Under the pieces are notes generated by a model. The model made no database searches. It was not told the origin of the DNA and saw nothing but the letters and a program-made list of their open reading frames with translations. From positions 124,001 through 188,000 of the forward strand of contig CANKUU010000002.1 in NCBI GenBank assembly GCA_947486785.1: a stretch of DNA of 64,000 nt, in the 5' to 3' direction. Origin of the DNA: an uncultured Flavobacteriaceae bacterium (lineage in GTDB: Bacteria; Bacteroidota; Bacteroidia; Flavobacteriales; Flavobacteriaceae). The position numbers and the translations under genes are program-made. The stretch's first letter is position 1; each line of letters opens with the position of its first letter. Shown piece after piece: positions 30,031 through 39,124 of this stretch.

Positions 30031-30108
30031 GTAACATTTAGGTAACCGTTTTGCAATATCCATTTAACATACCGATAACTCGACTTTTACAAGTAGGCAG
30101 TTCTTTTG
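30031..30108 (+). promoter_or_regulatory. Six in-phase 11-bp units plus -7 box (Pho-box-like array 1)
   Basis: GTAAC 30031, GTAAC 30042, GCAAT 30053, TTAAC 30064, ATAAC 30075 and TTTAC 30086 are spaced exactly 11 bp, followed by TTCTTTTG at 30101-30108. Two further units (TTAAC 30012, TTAAT 30023) lie upstream, 11 bp apart but out of phase with the rest. One-turn direct repeats just upstream of -7 are the binding geometry of PhoB/PhoP-type (OmpR-family) regulators, and nTAAC resembles the PhoP TTAACA half-site. The receptor ATG is 33 nt downstream. Confidence 0.68.
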
Positions 30109-30140
30109 CACCGGTATTTAAAACAAACACAAACATAGTA

Positions 30141-32948
30141 ATGAAAACAATTTTAACCACGTTACTTTTAGTAGCAACGGCACAAATTTTTGCCCAAAAT
30201 ACAGGTAGTATTGGCGGTACTCTTACCGACAAAGAATTAAATAATGAGCCTCTTGCTTTTGCAAATATTTTAATTGAAGGCACCACAAAAGGCACCACTT
30301 CAGATTTTGATGGTTTATATGAAATAACCAACCTAGAACCGGGTATTTATACGGTTATATTTAGCTTTTTAGGCTATGAAACTGTTAGCATGCCAAATGT
30401 AAAGGTGGAAGCAGGAAAAATAAGCACTATAAATTTAGCAATGTCTGCAAATGCAGGAGTTGAATTAGATGCCGTAACGGTTACAACAGTAGCACGAAAA
30501 GATTCTGAAACAGCACTTTTATTAGATCAAAAGAAGGCATCGGTAGTAAAAGAAAGTATTGGTTCAATTCAACTAGGTAAAATTGGCGTTTCTGATGTTG
30601 CTACAGCTACAACAAAAATATCAGGTGTTTCAAGTAGTGAAGGATCGGGCGATGTTTTTGTAAGAGGACTGGGTGATCGGTATTTAACTACAACACTTAA
30701 CGGCTTATCCGTTCCATCAGACGACGTAGAAAAGAAAAATATTGATTTAGGCCTATTTCCAACCCGAGTAATACAAAACGTAAGTATTAGCAAAACCTAT
30801 GCTGCACAATCTTCTGCAGATCAGGCTTCTGGCAACATAGATATTAGCTCTAGAGAGTTATCTGGGTCAAGTGAGTTTAGTTTAGGTGTGCAATCTGGCA
30901 TCAATACTAACGTAGCTGCTAGTGGCGTATTTGATAATTTTAAAGCGACAGTAAATAGCAGAAATACTGATTTTGGTTTTTATAGTCAAAGTCTTTCAAC
31001 AGAAGAATTAATATCAAGACAAGGGTGGAACCCCATAAAGCATGAAACGCCTATTGATTATGCGATGAACTTTGTGGCTGGAAAAAAATTCAATAATAAA
31101 ATTTCGTTATTACTCACAGGCTCACACAAATCATCTCATGAATATGGTCAAGGTCTTTTCAGACAATATCGATCTAATTTTATTGATGATACGATTACCG
31201 ATGCAACAAATTTTAAAAGAAAAACGATTACCTCTGCTTTATTGGATATTGCTTTTTTCGTTAACGAAAAAAACAAATTAAAATCGAGTACATTTTTTGT
31301 AAACAAAATTTCTGATCAAGTATATGAAGGTGGGCGAAATGGAGAAGGAACTATTTTTGAAGAAACAGATCCGTCAGAAGGCTTATTTCAGTTTGTTCGG
31401 GATCAAAACACCAAACAAACACGCCTACTGGTAACGCAATTACTAGGAACACATACTCTAAGCGATAACAATAAATTAAGCTGGGCAGCAGGTTACAACC
31501 TTGTTAACGCCGATGAACCTAACAGAATTAGGAATGAAGTAAACTTTGATCCTGATGGATCGCTGGTACAACTTGGTAGAACAGGTGGTTTTCAGCAAAG
31601 AAAATCGAAACAAGAAATAGAAGATGTAGCCATAAATGGTTACGTAAAAGATCTTCTTACCATTTTTGATAACGACGACCAATCTTTTAAGATTGAATTA
31701 GGTTTAAATGTTCGCAACAAAGAGCGAGATTTTAGATCTCAATTTATTGGTGTAGAAGAAAGACTTACTGGTATCATAAGCCCTACAAGTATAGACAATA
31801 TCGGAGGCATTTTTCAGCCCGGTAATTTTTCTAATCGCCTGTTAAAATTGAACGTTTTACAACCAGATGTATACAACGGAACCTTAAACTCTCAGGCGGC
31901 GTTTGCAGATTTTAAATTTAACCTAAACAAGTGGAGCTTTAATGCTGGTCTACGTTATCAAAAAGATGAAATAAAAGTAGGTTTCGACGTCGGCAACTTC
32001 CCTGGTCGTGTTGGCGAAATAATTAAAGATTACAGCAGCCTTTACCCAACGGTTAATATTAAGTATGACCTAAATGAAAAGAATACGCTAAGAATGGCGG
32101 TGAGTCAAACCATAACACTTCCCGAATTTAAAGAAATTGCTCCTTTTGAATATGTTTCGCAAACTGGACAAGTAGTTAGAGGTAATCCAGATCTTGAAGC
32201 TTCAACTAATCTTAATTACGATTTAAAATGGGAATACTACCCATCGAATGGACAGTTAATATCACTGGCTTCTTTTTATAAAAATATTTCAGACCCCATA
32301 AACACCGTACAGGATAGAGGTTCTGCAGGGGTATTCTCTTATTTTAATTCTGGAGAAAAAGCAGAAGTATTTGGTCTTGAAGCCGAAACTAAAATTAACT
32401 TAATAAAACCGATTGAAAACGAAGATGATGGCACCCAATCGGGATACAATTTAAACTTAAACTTAAATGCTACGCGCATGTGGCACAGGCAAGACTTAAA
32501 AGAAGTTTACAACGAACAAGGCGACTTTGTTAGAACCTTTAGATACAAAGGTTTAACAAAAACTGATTTACAAGGTGCTGCCGATTGGATATTTAATAGC
32601 AGTTTAAACTTTTCTACCGTAGGCGAAAATGCAATAAGTGCCTCTTTAACCGCAAACTACGCATCTGATAAGATTCTTGCATTAGGAGCACCAGAAATAC
32701 AAAGTGAAAGCGAAACTTTTTATAACGACGCAATTATAGAAAAAGGATTTGTTGCTTTAGATGCTGTAGTTAGCAAAGAGTTTGGCAAACATTTTAGAGT
32801 ACGACTTATTGGTAGAAATCTTTTAAATCCGACTATAAAAAGAACACAATTAGTAAAGCCAAGTACCACAAATATAGAAACCGAACAAACCGTTAGGTCT
32901 TACACCATAGGCACCAATCTTAGCTTAGGTATTAATTACAAATTTTAA
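30141..32948 (+). CDS. TonB-dependent receptor of phosphate-type locus
   Basis: A 935-residue outer-membrane receptor. The start is ATG 30141 (MKTILTTLLLVATAQIFAQ), giving a clean signal peptide; the 30 residues the ORF track adds upstream lie in the promoter array. A carboxypeptidase-regulatory-like domain follows (about 20-105, LEPGIYTVIFSFLGYET). The plug holds DVFVRGLGDRYLTTTLNGL and a SISKTYAAQSSADQASGNIDI segment, then a large barrel ends in LGINYKF. A beta-helix lipoprotein gene starts 46 nt after its stop, as a surface partner would. An OprO/P-like porin and PiT transporter lie downstream, and the promoter has phosphate-box-like repeats. Uptake of a phosphorylated compound or phosphate-bearing polymer is therefore inferred; the substrate is not shown by the sequence. 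Confidence 0.88.
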   Translation: MKTILTTLLLVATAQIFAQNTGSIGGTLTDKELNNEPLAFANILIEGTTKGTTSDFDGLYEITNLEPGIYTVIFSFLGYETVSMPNVKVEAGKISTINLAMSANAGVELDAVTVTTVARKDSETALLLDQKKASVVKESIGSIQLGKIGVSDVATATTKISGVSSSEGSGDVFVRGLGDRYLTTTLNGLSVPSDDVEKKNIDLGLFPTRVIQNVSISKTYAAQSSADQASGNIDISSRELSGSSEFSLGVQSGINTNVAASGVFDNFKATVNSRNTDFGFYSQSLSTEELISRQGWNPIKHETPIDYAMNFVAGKKFNNKISLLLTGSHKSSHEYGQGLFRQYRSNFIDDTITDATNFKRKTITSALLDIAFFVNEKNKLKSSTFFVNKISDQVYEGGRNGEGTIFEETDPSEGLFQFVRDQNTKQTRLLVTQLLGTHTLSDNNKLSWAAGYNLVNADEPNRIRNEVNFDPDGSLVQLGRTGGFQQRKSKQEIEDVAINGYVKDLLTIFDNDDQSFKIELGLNVRNKERDFRSQFIGVEERLTGIISPTSIDNIGGIFQPGNFSNRLLKLNVLQPDVYNGTLNSQAAFADFKFNLNKWSFNAGLRYQKDEIKVGFDVGNFPGRVGEIIKDYSSLYPTVNIKYDLNEKNTLRMAVSQTITLPEFKEIAPFEYVSQTGQVVRGNPDLEASTNLNYDLKWEYYPSNGQLISLASFYKNISDPINTVQDRGSAGVFSYFNSGEKAEVFGLEAETKINLIKPIENEDDGTQSGYNLNLNLNATRMWHRQDLKEVYNEQGDFVRTFRYKGLTKTDLQGAADWIFNSSLNFSTVGENAISASLTANYASDKILALGAPEIQSESETFYNDAIIEKGFVALDAVVSKEFGKHFRVRLIGRNLLNPTIKRTQLVKPSTTNIETEQTVRSYTIGTNLSLGINYKF

Positions 32949-32994
32949 TAATCTCAAATATAAATTTAATCAGAAACTATTAAAACTATTAACT

Positions 32995-34101
32995 ATGAAA
33001 CTTAAATCAATTAATCTATTTTCAATGTTAGCGTTGGGTTTAACACTATCAATAATTAGCTGTAGTAGTGATGACAATGCTACAGATCCGGGTACCTCAG
33101 GAGCAGCACCCACATGTTCTGACAATATTCAAAATGGCGATGAAACCGGTGTAGATTGCGGCGGAAGTTGTACTGCCTGTTCAGATGATAACTCATCTAC
33201 AACTAATCTTGAAGGCAATATAACTGAAGATCGTACCTTAAATGCCTCAGAAACGTATACCTTAAAAGGCACCTTAAATATAAATTCAGGTGCAACTTTA
33301 ACCATTCCAGCAGGAACAACTATTGTTTCCGAAACTGGTACCGAAAATTATATTGCAGTACAGCAAGGAGGAAAAATAGATATTCAAGGTACAGCAACTG
33401 CACCCGTAGTTATGACCTCTGAAGACGAAACTCCTGGTGATTGGGGCGGATTAGTAATTGCAGGTAAAGCTACAACGACTGAAGGTATTAATGCAACTGC
33501 AGAAGTTGGAGGAATAATTTACGGCGGTACAGATAACGCTGATGACTCTGGTTCTATAAACTACTTAATCATTAACTATGCAGGAGCTCAAATCAACTCT
33601 GAGTCTCAATATAATGGTCTTACACTTTACGCTGTTGGTTCTGAAACAAGTATCGAAAACGTTGCCATTTTAAACGGTACAGATGATGGAGTTGAATTCT
33701 TTGGCGGTACGGTAAGCGCTAGTAACTTCTATTTAGAAAATAATGAAGATGATGCTATCGATTGGACTGAGGGCTGGAACGGTACCTTAACCAATGCGTA
33801 CATATCGCATACTAGAGCAGGTTTCTCTACCGCAGTTGAAGCAGACGGGGTAAATAATAACCCTAGCCTAGTTAACCTAACTGCTGTATCAACCCAAGAA
33901 GGAACAGCTTTACAGTTTAAAGCAGAATCAGGTGCTACTATCACTAATCTTTACTTAAGTGGTTATGAAACTTTAGTTGACATGAAAGATGACGGTCCTT
34001 TAGCAAATATACAAATTGACGGGGCTACCGCTACCGTTGAAGGCCCTTATGATGAAGGAACACAAGTAGACGTTACTATGTTTGATTGGGCTAGAAACTA
34101 G
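32995..34101 (+). CDS. Surface lipoprotein with parallel beta-helix
   Basis: A 368-residue lipoprotein. The signal ends at lipobox TLSIISC, followed by an acidic Ser/Asp-rich linker that in Bacteroidota often sends lipoproteins to the cell surface. A Cys-rich motif follows (CSDNIQNGDETGVDCGGSC), known from flavobacterial surface proteins. The rest (about 75-360) is a right-handed beta-helix type repeat with SGATLTIPAGTTI, GDWGGLVIAGK and GTDDGVEFFGGTVS turns. It follows a TonB receptor by 46 nt and ends at a terminator, so it is likely its substrate-capture partner. No catalytic motif for a phosphatase or lyase is visible. Confidence 0.82.
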   Translation: MKLKSINLFSMLALGLTLSIISCSSDDNATDPGTSGAAPTCSDNIQNGDETGVDCGGSCTACSDDNSSTTNLEGNITEDRTLNASETYTLKGTLNINSGATLTIPAGTTIVSETGTENYIAVQQGGKIDIQGTATAPVVMTSEDETPGDWGGLVIAGKATTTEGINATAEVGGIIYGGTDNADDSGSINYLIINYAGAQINSESQYNGLTLYAVGSETSIENVAILNGTDDGVEFFGGTVSASNFYLENNEDDAIDWTEGWNGTLTNAYISHTRAGFSTAVEADGVNNNPSLVNLTAVSTQEGTALQFKAESGATITNLYLSGYETLVDMKDDGPLANIQIDGATATVEGPYDEGTQVDVTMFDWARN

Positions 34102-34119
34102 TTCTAATTAAATACCACT

Positions 34120-34154
34120 GAAAGCCCTGATTAAATTCGGGGCTTTCTATTTTT
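34120..34154 (+). terminator. Intrinsic terminator after receptor/lipoprotein operon
   Basis: GAAAGCCC...GA pairs with TTC...GGGCTTTC (one T-G pair) around TTAAA, followed by a T-rich tract. Confidence 0.85.
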
Positions 34155-34164
34155 ATAAAACAAC

Positions 34165-34231
34165 TTAACCTTTAACTTACTAATAATTGATTTTAACTTA
34201 ACTCTAATTTTACATTTCAGGCTTTACTTTG
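34165..34231 (+). promoter_or_regulatory. Five in-phase 11-bp units plus -7 box (Pho-box-like array 2)
   Basis: TTAAC 34165, CTTAC 34176, TTGAT 34187, TTAAC 34198 and TTTAC 34209 are spaced exactly 11 bp. TTACTTTG at 34224-34231 starts 15 bp after the start of the last unit, the same register as array 1. The ATG at 34250 lies about 19 nt after the -7 box. Confidence 0.65.
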
Positions 34232-34249
34232 CACTTTATTATAAAAGTC

Positions 34250-34636
34250 ATGAGAAATTTGATCCTTATTAGTAGTTTTTTGCTTCTTTCAGCAAATTTG
34301 TTTGCACAAAATACAGGGAGCTTAAAAGGTATGGTTACTGATGAATCGATGAACAATGAGCCCTTATTATTGGCAAATGTTCAACTAAAAGGCAAACAAC
34401 TTGTTTCACAGACAAACTTTCATGGCAATTTTGAAATCTCTGATTTAGAAGCAGGTAACTATACAGTAGTAGTTAGCTATTTGGGTTATGAGACTAAAGA
34501 AATACCCGTTACAATTAAGAAAAATACAACTGCAGAAATTAAAGCTATTTTAAACCCTTTAGAGTTTAATTTTGATGCTATTAAAGATGCTATGGAAGAA
34601 GGAGCCAAGGTGAGCTTAACCTCACGCCAAGAATAA
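34250..34636 (+). CDS. Orphan carboxypeptidase-regulatory-like domain protein
   Basis: A 128-residue exported protein. ATG 34250 gives the signal peptide MRNLILISSFLLLSANLFAQ; the ORF-track TTG at 34229 overlaps the -7 box. The rest is a single carboxypeptidase-regulatory-like (beta-sandwich) domain, NTGSLKGMVTDESMNNEPL to YLGYETKEIPVTIKKN. It clearly resembles the N-terminal domain of the TonB receptor encoded 4 kb upstream (NTGSIGGTLTDKELNNEPL, FLGYETVSM). There is no plug or barrel, and the frame ends cleanly before a terminator. It could be a free periplasmic copy of that domain or the relic of a second receptor. It has its own promoter array. Confidence 0.78.
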   Translation: MRNLILISSFLLLSANLFAQNTGSLKGMVTDESMNNEPLLLANVQLKGKQLVSQTNFHGNFEISDLEAGNYTVVVSYLGYETKEIPVTIKKNTTAEIKAILNPLEFNFDAIKDAMEEGAKVSLTSRQE

Positions 34637-34657
34637 AATAAAAGTAACTTATGATAC

Positions 34658-34694
34658 AAAAAAAAAGCCCAGTCGTTTGATTGGGCTTTTTTTT
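34658..34694. terminator. Bidirectional intrinsic terminator
   Basis: AAGCCCAGTC pairs with GATTGGGCTT (one G-T pair) around GTTT, flanked by A9 and T8 runs. It separates the orphan-domain gene from the convergent MORN-repeat gene. Confidence 0.87.
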
Positions 34695-34713
34695 AAAATT
34701 ATGGTACTTGTTA

Positions 34714-35073
34714 CTAATCTCTACTGACAATACCCTCTGTATTTTTAGTTTCAGTAACGGCAGCGATTGCATTTTCATTATATTCAACTTCCTTGAGTAC
34801 ATTATTAGCCCAAAATAACCATTTTCCTGTTTTCACTCCGTTTTCATAAGAGCCCACAGTAATCATTTCTCCCTTGGAGTTATAACTAAGCCACTCACCA
34901 TGTAATTGCTTGTCTAAATTAAAAGTTCCCTTTTGGCTAATTTCACCATTCGCATGAAAAAAGGTAGCTTCTATAAGGTTAGTTTCTTTGTTCAATTTCA
35001 TTTCTGGTTTAACCTGAGCTAAACAAGTGGTAGCAAATAATAAAACCGCTATAAAAAAAATAGATTTAGTCAT
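34714..35073 (-). CDS. Exported MORN-repeat (YwqK-like) protein
   Basis: A 119-residue protein with a signal peptide (FFIAVLLFATTCLAQ) and two to three MORN_2-type repeats (GEISQKGTFNLDKQLHGEWLSY, GEMITVGSYENGVKTGKWLFW, LKEVEYNENA). Such proteins are often labelled 'YwqK-family antitoxin', but no toxin partner is present, and the exported form is a common flavobacterial protein of unknown role. It converges on the orphan-domain gene. An 11-bp repeat array lies 36 nt upstream of its start but reads in the opposite orientation, so control by it is uncertain. Confidence 0.75.
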   Translation of the reverse strand: MTKSIFFIAVLLFATTCLAQVKPEMKLNKETNLIEATFFHANGEISQKGTFNLDKQLHGEWLSYNSKGEMITVGSYENGVKTGKWLFWANNVLKEVEYNENAIAAVTETKNTEGIVSRD

Positions 35074-35108
35074 AATATTGAAAACTTAAATTATCATTCA
35101 GGTCTAAA

Positions 35109-35163
35109 ATTACATAAACTTCACATAAAAACAACATTTACGTAACATTAAATTTACATTAAA
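35109..35163 (+). promoter_or_regulatory. Five in-phase 11-bp units without clear -7 (array 3)
   Basis: ATTAC 35109, TTCAC 35120, ACAAC 35131, GTAAC 35142 and TTTAC 35153 are spaced exactly 11 bp; the last three extended units read CAACATTTACG, TAACATTAAAT and TTACATTAAAC. No TTTG box sits 15 bp after the last unit start. It lies between the MORN gene and the porin gene 375 nt away. Confidence 0.5.
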
Positions 35164-35164
35164 C

Positions 35165-35537
35165 ACATAACAGACTTTTAATCAATACATTACATATAAT
35201 TAGTTTTATTAGTTTTATTTAAAACAACTACATATATCCTGAGAAGGTAAGGCGATCAAAAAAGTTGCATCAGGGTTTAACCAACTCTTTGCGCACTAAT
35301 TTAATGGTAATGGCAGCGGAGCGAAATAAAAAGCCCCTGAAATAAGCACGTTTACGAAAATTTATTTAAAACAAAATATCCTAAGCCTAAAACACCTAAC
35401 TTTTAATTTATATTTGATGAATTCATAGGAAGAGTAATACCCTATATTGTATTCCTAAATAAATACATTGCTTTATTTTTATAAAAGCTTCTTAAACGAA
35501 CGAATAAAGCCTTAGAAAGTTAAAAACTAGTAAGTAC
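35165..35537. other. Non-coding gap before the porin gene
   Basis: The 373-nt gap has no convincing gene. It contains a tandem TTAGTTTTA pair (about 35200-35220), a locally GC-richer patch (GGCAGCGGAGCG, about 35315) with a 13-codon open frame that may be a decayed element, and a good -7 box near its end. A non-coding RNA driven by array 3 cannot be excluded. Confidence 0.4.
35409..35416 (+). promoter_or_regulatory. Porin gene -7 promoter element
   Basis: TATATTTG matches TAnnTTTG perfectly, 121 nt before the porin ATG. Near it are CTAA-type repeats that are not spaced 11 bp apart. Confidence 0.4.
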
Positions 35538-36743
35538 ATGAAATTGAGATTTGTTTCGCTTTTAGCACTTTTGTCAATTTACACCATGTCAATTGCCCAA
35601 GAGTCAAACGCACCAGCCTACGGAAAAGGACTTTTTAATTTGATAGGAAAAGACAGTACTTGGAGTATGAAAATTGGCACGAGAATGCAATTTTTAACAA
35701 CAGCTAGCTGGACTAAACAGGAAAACGATGGCCTTAGCGACCCAAAACAAAATTTTTTAATAAGGCGCGCACGACTAAAACTAGATGGCTTTGCGTATGC
35801 TCCTAAACTAAGATATAAAATTGAACTAGGGCTTTCAAACCGTGATATCTCAGGGGGCTCCGAATTTACAAGTAATGCCCCAAGGTATATTTTAGATGCC
35901 GTAATTAAGTGGAATTTCTATAAAGATTTTGATTTATGGATGGGACAGTCAAAACTTCCTGGTAATATTGAGCGGATCATATCTTCAGGTAATTTACAAC
36001 AGGTAGATCGTTCGCTACTAAATAGTAGTTTCAATATAGATCGTGATCTCGGACTACAACTACGTCACCACTTCACCCTCTCGAATAAATTTTTAATTCG
36101 TGAAAAATACGCAATTACCATGGGCGAAGGCAGAAACATAACCACAGGAAACTTAGGTGGTTTTCAGCATACCTTGCGGTTAGAGCTATTACCATTTGGG
36201 GCATTTACAGCAAACGGTGACTATAGCGGTAGTGATTTAAAACGAGAAGAAAAACCAAAATTATTGATAGCTGCAACCTATGATTCGAACCAAAATGCTG
36301 TAAAAACCAGAAGTAACCAAGGTAAGTATATGAGAACCGATACTGGTTTTTACGAGACAAACATTAACACCATTTTCATAGATGCCATGTTTAAATACAA
36401 TGGAATTTCTTTCATGGCAGAGTATGCAAATAGATTGGCAAGCGACCCCATAGCCAAAAATACTGATGGAACACCCACTGGTGATGTAGTGGAAGTAGGT
36501 ACGGGTTTAAATCTACAATCAGGATATTTATTTCAAAATAATTGGGAAATATCAGGCCGTTATACGGCTATTAAACTAGATCCTATTCTTATGACGAAGA
36601 ATCTACAGAAGCAATATACCCTTGGCCTTTCTAAATTTATACACGGCCATAAATTAAAAGTTCAGACCGATCTAAGTTATCTTTCTGTTGATAATACTAC
36701 TAATAGCGTACTATTTAGAATACAAGTAGACATGCACTTTTAA
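35538..36743 (+). CDS. Phosphate-selective porin OprO/OprP-like protein
   Basis: A 401-residue outer-membrane barrel. The signal peptide ends at MSIAQ; mature sequence of the OprO/OprP type follows: SWSMKIGTRMQFLTTASW, LIRRARLKLDGFAYAPKLRYKIELG and WMGQSKLPGNIERI. The C-terminus ends in FRIQVDMHF, with the terminal aromatic residue of barrel proteins. Family members form basic-lined pores for phosphate or polyphosphate, though many Bacteroidota homologues have not been tested. The PiT transporter gene begins 77 nt downstream with its own promoter array inside the gap, so the pair can give outer- then inner-membrane passage for phosphate. Confidence 0.87.
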   Translation: MKLRFVSLLALLSIYTMSIAQESNAPAYGKGLFNLIGKDSTWSMKIGTRMQFLTTASWTKQENDGLSDPKQNFLIRRARLKLDGFAYAPKLRYKIELGLSNRDISGGSEFTSNAPRYILDAVIKWNFYKDFDLWMGQSKLPGNIERIISSGNLQQVDRSLLNSSFNIDRDLGLQLRHHFTLSNKFLIREKYAITMGEGRNITTGNLGGFQHTLRLELLPFGAFTANGDYSGSDLKREEKPKLLIAATYDSNQNAVKTRSNQGKYMRTDTGFYETNINTIFIDAMFKYNGISFMAEYANRLASDPIAKNTDGTPTGDVVEVGTGLNLQSGYLFQNNWEISGRYTAIKLDPILMTKNLQKQYTLGLSKFIHGHKLKVQTDLSYLSVDNTTNSVLFRIQVDMHF

Positions 36744-36751
36744 CCTAAATA

Positions 36752-36796
36752 GTAACATTTAGATAACATTATGATTCAAAAGACTATAGATATTTG
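36752..36796 (+). promoter_or_regulatory. 11-bp units plus -7 box before PiT gene (Pho-box-like array 4)
   Basis: GTAAC 36752 and ATAAC 36763 are 11 bp apart, and a weaker in-phase unit (ATTCA) starts at 36774. GATATTTG at 36789-36796 starts 15 bp after that unit, the same register as arrays 1 and 2. TTAAC 36740 is off by one. The PiT ATG is 24 nt after the -7 box. Confidence 0.62.
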
Positions 36797-36820: not shown

Positions 36821-39124
36821 ATGGATAACATTTACTTTATAATGATTATTGCTCTTGCAGCTTTGGCAATCGCAGATTTGGTTGTTGGCGTTAGTAATGA
36901 TGCTGTAAATTTCTTGAATTCGGCTATAGGCTCAAAAGCTATTTCTTTCAGAACCATTATGATTGTTGCCAGTTTAGGTATTGCCTTTGGGGCAATATTT
37001 TCAAGTGGAATGATGGAGGTTGCTCGAAAAGGCATTTTTAACCCAAGTGAATTTTACTTTGATGAAATAATGTTCATTTTTATGGCGGTAATGATTACCG
37101 ACATACTATTACTTGATTTCTTCAATACCTTAGGAATGCCAACATCTACAACCGTTTCTATTGTTTTTGAACTGTTGGGTGCTGCGGTTGCAATGTCCTT
37201 AATTAAAATTGGAGCTGATGGGGGTAATTTTGGAGAGGTAGTTAACTATATAAATACAACAAAAGCAGGTGAAATTATATATGGTATATTATTATCTGTT
37301 GTGGTCGCTTTTTCTATTGGTGCCATAGTACAATGGATTTCGCGTTTGTTATTATCCTATCATTTTGAGCGAAAAGCTAAATGGGTTGGTGCTCTTTTCG
37401 GTGGTGTAGCCCTTTCAGCTATAACCTACTTTATTCTTATGAAAGGAATAAAAGGAACTGCTTTTGCAAAAGAAAGCTACGACCTTATTGGCGGTAGCAC
37501 GATAAAACATTTTCTTGAAGAAAATTGGGTTTCAATCGCAGGAGTCAACTTTGTAATTTGGTCTATTCTATCCTATATTTTAATGAATTTCGCTAAGGCC
37601 AATATTTATAAAATAATTATTGGTGTAGGCACATTTGCCTTAGCACTTGCCTTTGCTGGAAATGATTTAGTAAATTTTGTTGGTGTACCTATTGCGGCTT
37701 GGCAATCTTATGAAGCTTGGATAGCGTCGGGCACTGCTGCATCAGAATTTAGTATGTCCGTATTAGATGCCAAAGTACCCACGCCAACATTACTACTATT
37801 TATTGCAGGTGTAATTATGGTAGTTACACTTTGGTTTTCAAGCAAGGCAAAGGCAGTCGTAAAAACCTCTTTAGATCTCTCAAGTCAAGAAGAAACTAAC
37901 GAACGCTTTCAACCGAACTTTATTTCCCGTAGTTTGGTACGCACAGCCGTTTCCTTTTCTAATATGATTTGGCAAATTGTGCCAAATTCTGCAAAAGAAA
38001 AAATTGAAAATCAATTTGAAAAACCCGTAATTCAGCTCGCAAAAAATAAAGTTCATGAGCTTCCTGCTTTTGATATGGTAAGGGCAGCAGTTAACTTAAT
38101 GGTTGCAGGTATATTAATTTCAATAGCTACATCTTACAAACTTCCATTATCTACAACTTATGTAACTTTTATGGTTGCCATGGGAACTTCATTAGCAGAT
38201 AGAGCATGGGGTGCAGAAAGCGCCGTATATCGAGTTGCTGGCGTACTTAATGTAATAGGCGGTTGGTTTGGTACCGCCATTGTTGCCTTTATTGCTTCTG
38301 GGTCAATTTTAGCGCTAATCAGTTTTGGTAAAGGCTCTGCCATTGCGGTATTACTTTTCGTTGCGATTTTACTTTTAGCAAGAAACTACATTTCACATAA
38401 TAAGAAATCAAAAGAAATTAAAGCTGAAGATTCATTAACCAAAGCAGAAAGCAGCTCTATACAAGGTGTTATAGAAGAAAGTGCAAATAATATCTCGAAC
38501 ATTATAAAAAGAACGAATAGAATATACACCAATTCTATTAACGGTCTTTCAGTACAAAACCTTGAATTACTAAAAAAGAATAAGAAACAAGGCGCAAAAT
38601 TGTCTAACGAAATAGATGATATACGTGATCATATTTTCTATTTCATTAAAAATTTAGATGAAGCTAGTGTAGGTGCCAGTAACTTCTACATTACCGTTTT
38701 AGGACACTTAACTGACATTACACAATCTTTAGAATACATAGGAAAAGTAAGTCTAAAACACATCAACAATAATCACAAAAAATTAAAATACAATCAAATC
38801 AAAGAACTCAAGCAAATAGATCAAAAATTAGAAGAAATATTTACGACCACTCAAGAAGCTTTTGATAATAGATCTTTTGAAGACATTGGAAGGGTATTAG
38901 CTAAAAAACAAGAATTATTTGATTTAATCTCCGAAAAAATTCAGATTCAAGTTGCACGCACAAGAACGGTAGAATCTAGTCCTAAAAACACTACTTTATA
39001 CTTCTCATTACTTTTAGAAACAAAAGATTTAATGACTACTACCATGACCCTTTTAGAGCTCTATTATAACGAACACGACAGCTCAATTACCCCAGCAACA
39101 ATTGATGAACCAGCTGAAAATTAA
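36821..39124 (+). CDS. PiT-family inorganic phosphate transporter with PhoU-like tail
   Basis: A 767-residue inner-membrane protein. ATG 36821 is chosen over the TTG at 36806. Two PiT half-repeats with the family signature are present: LVVGVSNDAVNFLNSAIGSKA near residue 20 and LALAFAGNDLVNFVGVP near 275. A third conserved block, KLPLSTTYVTFMVAMGTSLAD, lies near 445. About twelve membrane segments are present. After residue 540 comes a soluble, helical PhoU/DUF47-like domain (IIKRTNRIYTNSINGLS, then IDDIRDHIFYFIKNLDEAS). In other bacteria this domain is often a separate regulatory protein; fusion to the permease is typical of Bacteroidota. The porin gene lies directly upstream and a phosphate-box-like promoter lies between. 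Confidence 0.92.
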   Translation: MDNIYFIMIIALAALAIADLVVGVSNDAVNFLNSAIGSKAISFRTIMIVASLGIAFGAIFSSGMMEVARKGIFNPSEFYFDEIMFIFMAVMITDILLLDFFNTLGMPTSTTVSIVFELLGAAVAMSLIKIGADGGNFGEVVNYINTTKAGEIIYGILLSVVVAFSIGAIVQWISRLLLSYHFERKAKWVGALFGGVALSAITYFILMKGIKGTAFAKESYDLIGGSTIKHFLEENWVSIAGVNFVIWSILSYILMNFAKANIYKIIIGVGTFALALAFAGNDLVNFVGVPIAAWQSYEAWIASGTAASEFSMSVLDAKVPTPTLLLFIAGVIMVVTLWFSSKAKAVVKTSLDLSSQEETNERFQPNFISRSLVRTAVSFSNMIWQIVPNSAKEKIENQFEKPVIQLAKNKVHELPAFDMVRAAVNLMVAGILISIATSYKLPLSTTYVTFMVAMGTSLADRAWGAESAVYRVAGVLNVIGGWFGTAIVAFIASGSILALISFGKGSAIAVLLFVAILLLARNYISHNKKSKEIKAEDSLTKAESSSIQGVIEESANNISNIIKRTNRIYTNSINGLSVQNLELLKKNKKQGAKLSNEIDDIRDHIFYFIKNLDEASVGASNFYITVLGHLTDITQSLEYIGKVSLKHINNNHKKLKYNQIKELKQIDQKLEEIFTTTQEAFDNRSFEDIGRVLAKKQELFDLISEKIQIQVARTRTVESSPKNTTLYFSLLLETKDLMTTTMTLLELYYNEHDSSITPATIDEPAEN

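Follow-up and report, generated by a model that had tools for sequence, protein, structure and literature searches.

Arrays of 11-bp repeats at fixed distances from the promoter box as putative Pho boxes in a Flavobacteriaceae phosphate gene island and in other Bacteroidota

Our analysis of the window (the whole 64,000-nucleotide stretch of DNA from an uncultured Flavobacteriaceae bacterium) indicates that the arrays of 11-bp direct repeats found upstream of a TonB-dependent receptor gene and its neighbours are very probably Pho boxes of a flavobacterial PhoB. The original prediction had read three of these promoters in this way, and the reading is supported by the phase of the repeats, their distances to the promoter box, their conservation, the genes that they accompany and the neighbouring regulator. 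We also consider it likely that they represent an undescribed Bacteroidota Pho box with a slot code counted from the start of the TTTG box (-15, -26, -37, one skipped, -59 and -70), with gene-specific occupancy (PiT promoters using only -26 and -37) and with inverted arrays at a MORN-like gene, which in this PstS-less genome would govern a single-island regulon built on a receptor/beta-helix pair and PiT. A full-text literature search, which covered few subscription papers, returned no Bacteroidota Pho-box sequence, and the novelty of the element is accordingly provisional. The genes of the island are as follows.

30141..32948, + strand: TonB-dependent receptor with a CarboxypepD_reg N-domain (Pfam PF00593, PF13715, PF07715)
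32995..34101, + strand: lipoprotein of the F. johnsoniae FII / Caulobacter ElpS kind (from position, cysteine and fold)
34250..34636, + strand: small secreted CarboxypepD_reg-like domain protein, without barrel (PF13715)
34714..35073, - strand: MORN-like small secreted protein (PF07661 below cut-off; homologs)
35538..36743, + strand: OprO/OprP-type porin (PF07396)
36821..39124, + strand: PiT-family phosphate transporter with a long C-terminal region (PF01384)

The lipoprotein has no sequence match in Pfam or PDB, and comparison with the viral collection gave nothing useful. Since its AlphaFold model is all-beta (pLDDT 83.8, residues 1-67 being unreliable) and its best Foldseek matches, which are weak (E 0.008), are pectate-lyase beta-helices, the model makes a beta-helix fold likely. 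This genome (99.8% complete) contains no PF12849 match, that is, no PstS-type protein, and hence not the pst operon on which a classical Pho regulon centred on PstSCAB depends; PiT may be its main phosphate importer. The long C-terminal region of PiT, without a Pfam match, appears PhoU-like by eye and could tie transport to PhoR signalling.

Four arrays and three associated promoter boxes were mapped in the island; array 4, which is intergenic, was absent from the original prediction.

30031..30090, + strand: array 1, six 11-bp slots with five good units
30101..30108, + strand: promoter box TTCTTTTG of array 1, starting 15 bp past the last unit start
34165..34213, + strand: array 2, five 11-bp slots with four good units
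34224..34231, + strand: promoter box TTACTTTG of array 2
35109..35157, + strand: array 4 (ATTAC, TTCAC, a weak slot, GTAAC, TTTAC)
36752..36767, + strand: array 3, two units (36752 GTAAC, 36763 ATAAC)
36789..36796, + strand: promoter box GATATTTG of array 3, starting 26 bp past the second unit start

A recount in the window confirmed the coordinates and exact 11-bp steps reported for the first three arrays. The slots of array 1 are GTAAC (30031), GTAAC (30042), a weak GCAAT (30053), TTAAC (30064), ATAAC (30075) and TTTAC (30086), the weak slot being the fourth counted from the promoter, and those of array 2 are TTAAC (34165), CTTAC (34176), a weak TTGAT (34187), TTAAC (34198) and TTTAC (34209). 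The claim that the box always starts 15 bp after the last unit is exact for arrays 1 and 2, but applies to array 3 only if its degenerate promoter-proximal slot (36774, ATTCA) is counted; array 3 belongs to a two-unit class in which this slot is empty. The arrays are thus direct repeats with an 11-bp period, placed directly before the core promoter box at a fixed position (15 or 26 bp), as is expected of Pho boxes.

To assess chance occurrence, every TTTG site on both strands of the window (about 1130) was scored for in-phase xTWAC units. Only arrays 1 and 2 reach as many as 5 and 4 perfect in-phase units, respectively, where 60 dinucleotide shuffles give an expectation of 0.017 sites with three or more units per shuffled window, and the other spacings and offsets tried in the window never yielded more than three units. 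Sites with two perfect units, the class of array 3, number 2 in the window versus 1.8 expected, so that array 3 taken alone is at chance level. Its assignment is supported by orthologous PiT promoters with an identical layout. Among 30 PiT loci of the family, chosen by protein alone and including the window, 24 carry a pair of units at an 11-bp step and, exactly 26 bp past the second of them, the box. Array 3 has this same arrangement, in which the slot nearest the promoter is unoccupied. Where a PiT gene lies downstream of a porin and has no box of its own, the porin often carries one.

A receptor scan of named genomes provided 78 loci. The usual layout in Flavobacteriaceae is two units, a weak slot, TTAAC, sTAAC, TTTAC and the box KTTYTTTGC, and most orthologs in this family repeat the order of good and weak slots seen in array 1. 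When the distances between TWAC pairs were counted with no phase assumed in 54 non-redundant receptor promoters, peaks appeared at 11, 22, 33, 44 and 55 bp (109, 59, 63, 69 and 34 pairs), compared with fewer than 15 at most other distances and with 12, 2, 0, 8 and 4 pairs at the same distances in a reversed control. Conservation of the repeat phase in related species, the lack of which the original prediction had named among its refuting outcomes, therefore holds in receptor promoters. In the 27 arrays that have at least three units, the TTTG box follows the last one at 15 bp (20 arrays) or 26 bp (six arrays), two other distances occurring once each. In most of the Bacteroidales loci within the 78 (Marinifilum, Prolixibacteraceae) the array is weak or absent. 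The repeats directly adjoin the promoter box and have a high A+T content, as would befit an extended constitutive promoter or an upstream AT-rich element with no dedicated regulator, but locking of five slots in phase, the skipped slot and the restriction, within each genome, to a small number of phosphate-related genes make this explanation highly improbable.

We searched 121 genomes of the family with a strict three-unit pattern ending in TTTGC, which gave 36 matches versus one in a backward control. Of 30 sites fetched, one being the window itself, 27 precede a receptor (14), an FII lipoprotein (4), a porin-like gene (8) or the small third gene (1), and most of them lie 20-70 bp from the start codon; orthologs of the small third gene also have a box upstream. 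A loose pattern with two mismatches gave 52 real and 52 control matches, with no genome-wide excess, and therefore only strong boxes are recognisable. Extended to 297 Bacteroidota genomes, the pattern matched 36 times versus 4 in the control; in other families the sites are found before genes for receptors, PstS (L275, L278), porins (L279, L283) and, in L273, a calcineurin-like phosphoesterase. By sequence, the same repeats at the same promoter distances recur across Bacteroidota. Since other families mostly have the complete TAnnTTTG box, TTnCTTTG seems to be a flavobacterial modification of it.

The receptor and the small third protein both have CarbopepD_reg domains, and the likeness of the arrays might therefore reflect common descent only, the promoters having been duplicated together with paralogous N-domain genes. 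However, the same phase and distances are found before the unrelated PiT, porin, PstS and beta-helix lipoprotein genes, and the spacer letters differ; this explanation, to which we give very little credence, appears already largely refuted by these comparisons.

Boxes precede phosphate-acquisition genes, and in relatives these include pstS. Eleven loci of relatives contain a true PstS: pstS itself is preceded by a box in four of them (L148, L150, L153, L156), and the porin just upstream of it in another four (L149, L151, L152, G057/L244). L055 and L075 are two further loci with a box before pstS, and the pstS loci L147 and L155 carry none. The original prediction expected boxes before pstSCAB, phosphatase or phoBR genes. 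This is borne out for pstS in relatives, but not in the present genome, where the box reaches neither phosphatase genes nor phoBR or pst, there being no PstS and no box at its own phoB, nor for the PhoX-like phosphatase genes of relatives, where we found no convincing box.

For a search of the entire 3.57-Mb genome we used R1, a sequence-only model built from 62 sites, none from this genome. The R1 sites were picked by unit score, and their letters therefore reflect selection in part; the tests anchored on genes are independent of the model. Arrays 1, 2 and 4 rank first to third (E 8e-5, 8e-4 and 3e-3), and the remaining matches are weak (E 0.02 or worse). Neither R1 nor the pattern scans revealed further convincing boxes in this genome beyond the island, and there is none at the oprP gene of the window. 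Gapped-pattern matches elsewhere in the genome were rejected as lying inside genes or near unrelated genes.

Array 4 precedes the MORN-like gene in inverted orientation. An inverted 11-bp pair is present at 40 of 43 MORN-like homologs (a count that includes three copies of the gene in the window and some loci twice), commonly with a TAnnTTTG box at a distance of 46 bp, and the homologs keep the array in three settings, beside PiT, a porin or aspS. We rejected aspS as a new target in the four genomes concerned, as the array belongs to the divergent MORN-like gene.

Only three Trans_reg_C proteins are encoded in this genome. A PhoB-like regulator (L036) and its kinase form a pair on contig C1 of G000 at about 286 kb; the best NCBIfam model for the regulator is PhoB and those for the kinase are PnpS and PhoR, all below cut-offs. 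With so few candidates, another OmpR-family regulator, such as the RpaB/MtrA/YycF-like L035, has to be weighed as the protein that binds the arrays. WalR/YycF sites are 11-bp direct repeats, TGTWAH-N5-TGTWAH, and resemble the array units on the other strand. L035 scores higher with the RpaB, MtrA and YycF models than with PhoB, and the MORN-like gene has inverted units of the form TGTAAA-N5-TGTTA. We nevertheless consider a role for L035 unlikely, since the targets are phosphate genes (the receptor/ElpS pair, porin, PiT and PstS) and since it is the L036-type regulator, not L035, that adjoins the arrays, lying divergently beside the receptor in 32 of the 78 loci with a median identity of 83% to the copy in this genome. 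The same divergent arrangement of an L036-type regulator and the receptor occurs in genus g121, where the porin and FII lipoprotein genes nearby also have boxes before them.

Assignment of the arrays to PhoB also agrees with what is known of F. johnsoniae. The gene order regulator/receptor/FII lipoprotein in relatives is that published for its phoB cluster, in which the TonB-dependent receptor Fjoh_0545 and the lipoprotein Fjoh_0546 are strongly induced, being listed at 8.0 and 9.9 on phosphate depletion (FC column of Table 1; PMC8115612). Membership of the receptor and lipoprotein in the Pho regulon, as originally proposed, is supported by analogy, the partner genes belonging to a cluster that phosphate starvation is known to induce (PMC8115612). 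F. johnsoniae oprP was not induced by phosphate depletion (PMC8115612), in contrast to which the g121 porin genes beside the PhoB-like gene do carry a box.

In the mechanism that we propose, low phosphate would cause the PhoR-like kinase to phosphorylate the PhoB-like regulator, which would bind head to tail on the 11-bp direct repeats xTWACA, with one protomer to each helical turn and all of them on one face of the DNA. In F. psychrophilum, TAnnTTTG boxes sit at -12 to -5 (PMC9723704). This would place the units near -27, -38, -49, -71 and -82. The slots near -27 and -38 presumably match the position of the E. coli Pho box. Occupied slots would overlie the region of the -33 element and recruit RNA polymerase to a weak box, switching on the TonB receptor with its beta-helix lipoprotein, the porin and the small receptor-like domain for outer-membrane capture, together with PiT. 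PiT promoters would use a two-slot version one turn further upstream, and the inverted array at the MORN-like gene might serve either activation or repression.

PhoP boxes of B. subtilis are multimeric arrays of TTAACA/TTTACA units with an 11-bp period, and inverted arrays are known at repressed promoters; PhoP reportedly has a repressor role at tagAB, going by the title of a 1998 report (Liu 1998, listed in PMC4415409). The arrays described here share the unit sequence, period and multimeric character of these boxes but differ in phylum, promoter type and target genes. The Pho box of E. coli PhoB consists of two 11-nt direct repeat units (PMC4415409). In both systems, head-to-tail 11-bp repeats stand directly before the core promoter in place of the upstream element, the regulator is of the two-component type, and the targets include pst, porin and transporter genes. 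However, the unit is xTWACA here and CTGTCAT in E. coli, the box is of the Bacteroidota type, up to five good units occur with a skipped slot, and the place of phoA and pst as core targets is taken by the TonB receptor, the ElpS-like lipoprotein and PiT. Within the phylum, Bacteroides fragilis PhoB binds the pstC promoter, and pst, a phosphate permease and the porin O gene are PhoB-dependent (PMC3547664); this PhoRB system is pst-centred, and we found no defined binding sequence in that paper (PMC3547664). The F. johnsoniae PUS IV / PhoBR cluster shares the receptor and FII lipoprotein but places them next to phoBR, whereas in the present genome phoBR lies at another locus and the pair is followed by OprP-PiT; the portion of the source consulted describes no regulatory sequence for the F. 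johnsoniae PHO regulon (PMC8115612). Caulobacter ElpS and CC0171 likewise combine a phosphate-starvation lipoprotein with an adjoining TonB receptor gene, although Caulobacter is an Alphaproteobacterium and its receptor was reported to be expressed in both rich and poor medium (PMC2996285). A definition of the PhoB site in Bacteroidota, a major marine, soil and gut group, would allow phosphate regulons to be predicted from sequence, and its exact slot geometry is available for reporter tests. It would also link the most consistent target, the little-understood pair of TonB receptor and ElpS-like lipoprotein, with phosphate control throughout Bacteroidota.

Two further elements were observed in g121 genomes. 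A near-identical element, TTGATATTCAGTTAACTTTAAATTAACATT..TGTTAATAAGTT, scores with R1 in L324, L327, L329 and L336 and has no gene start close behind it. In L330 and L339, array-like repeats without a TTTG box precede a gene for a lysine- and alanine-rich protein.
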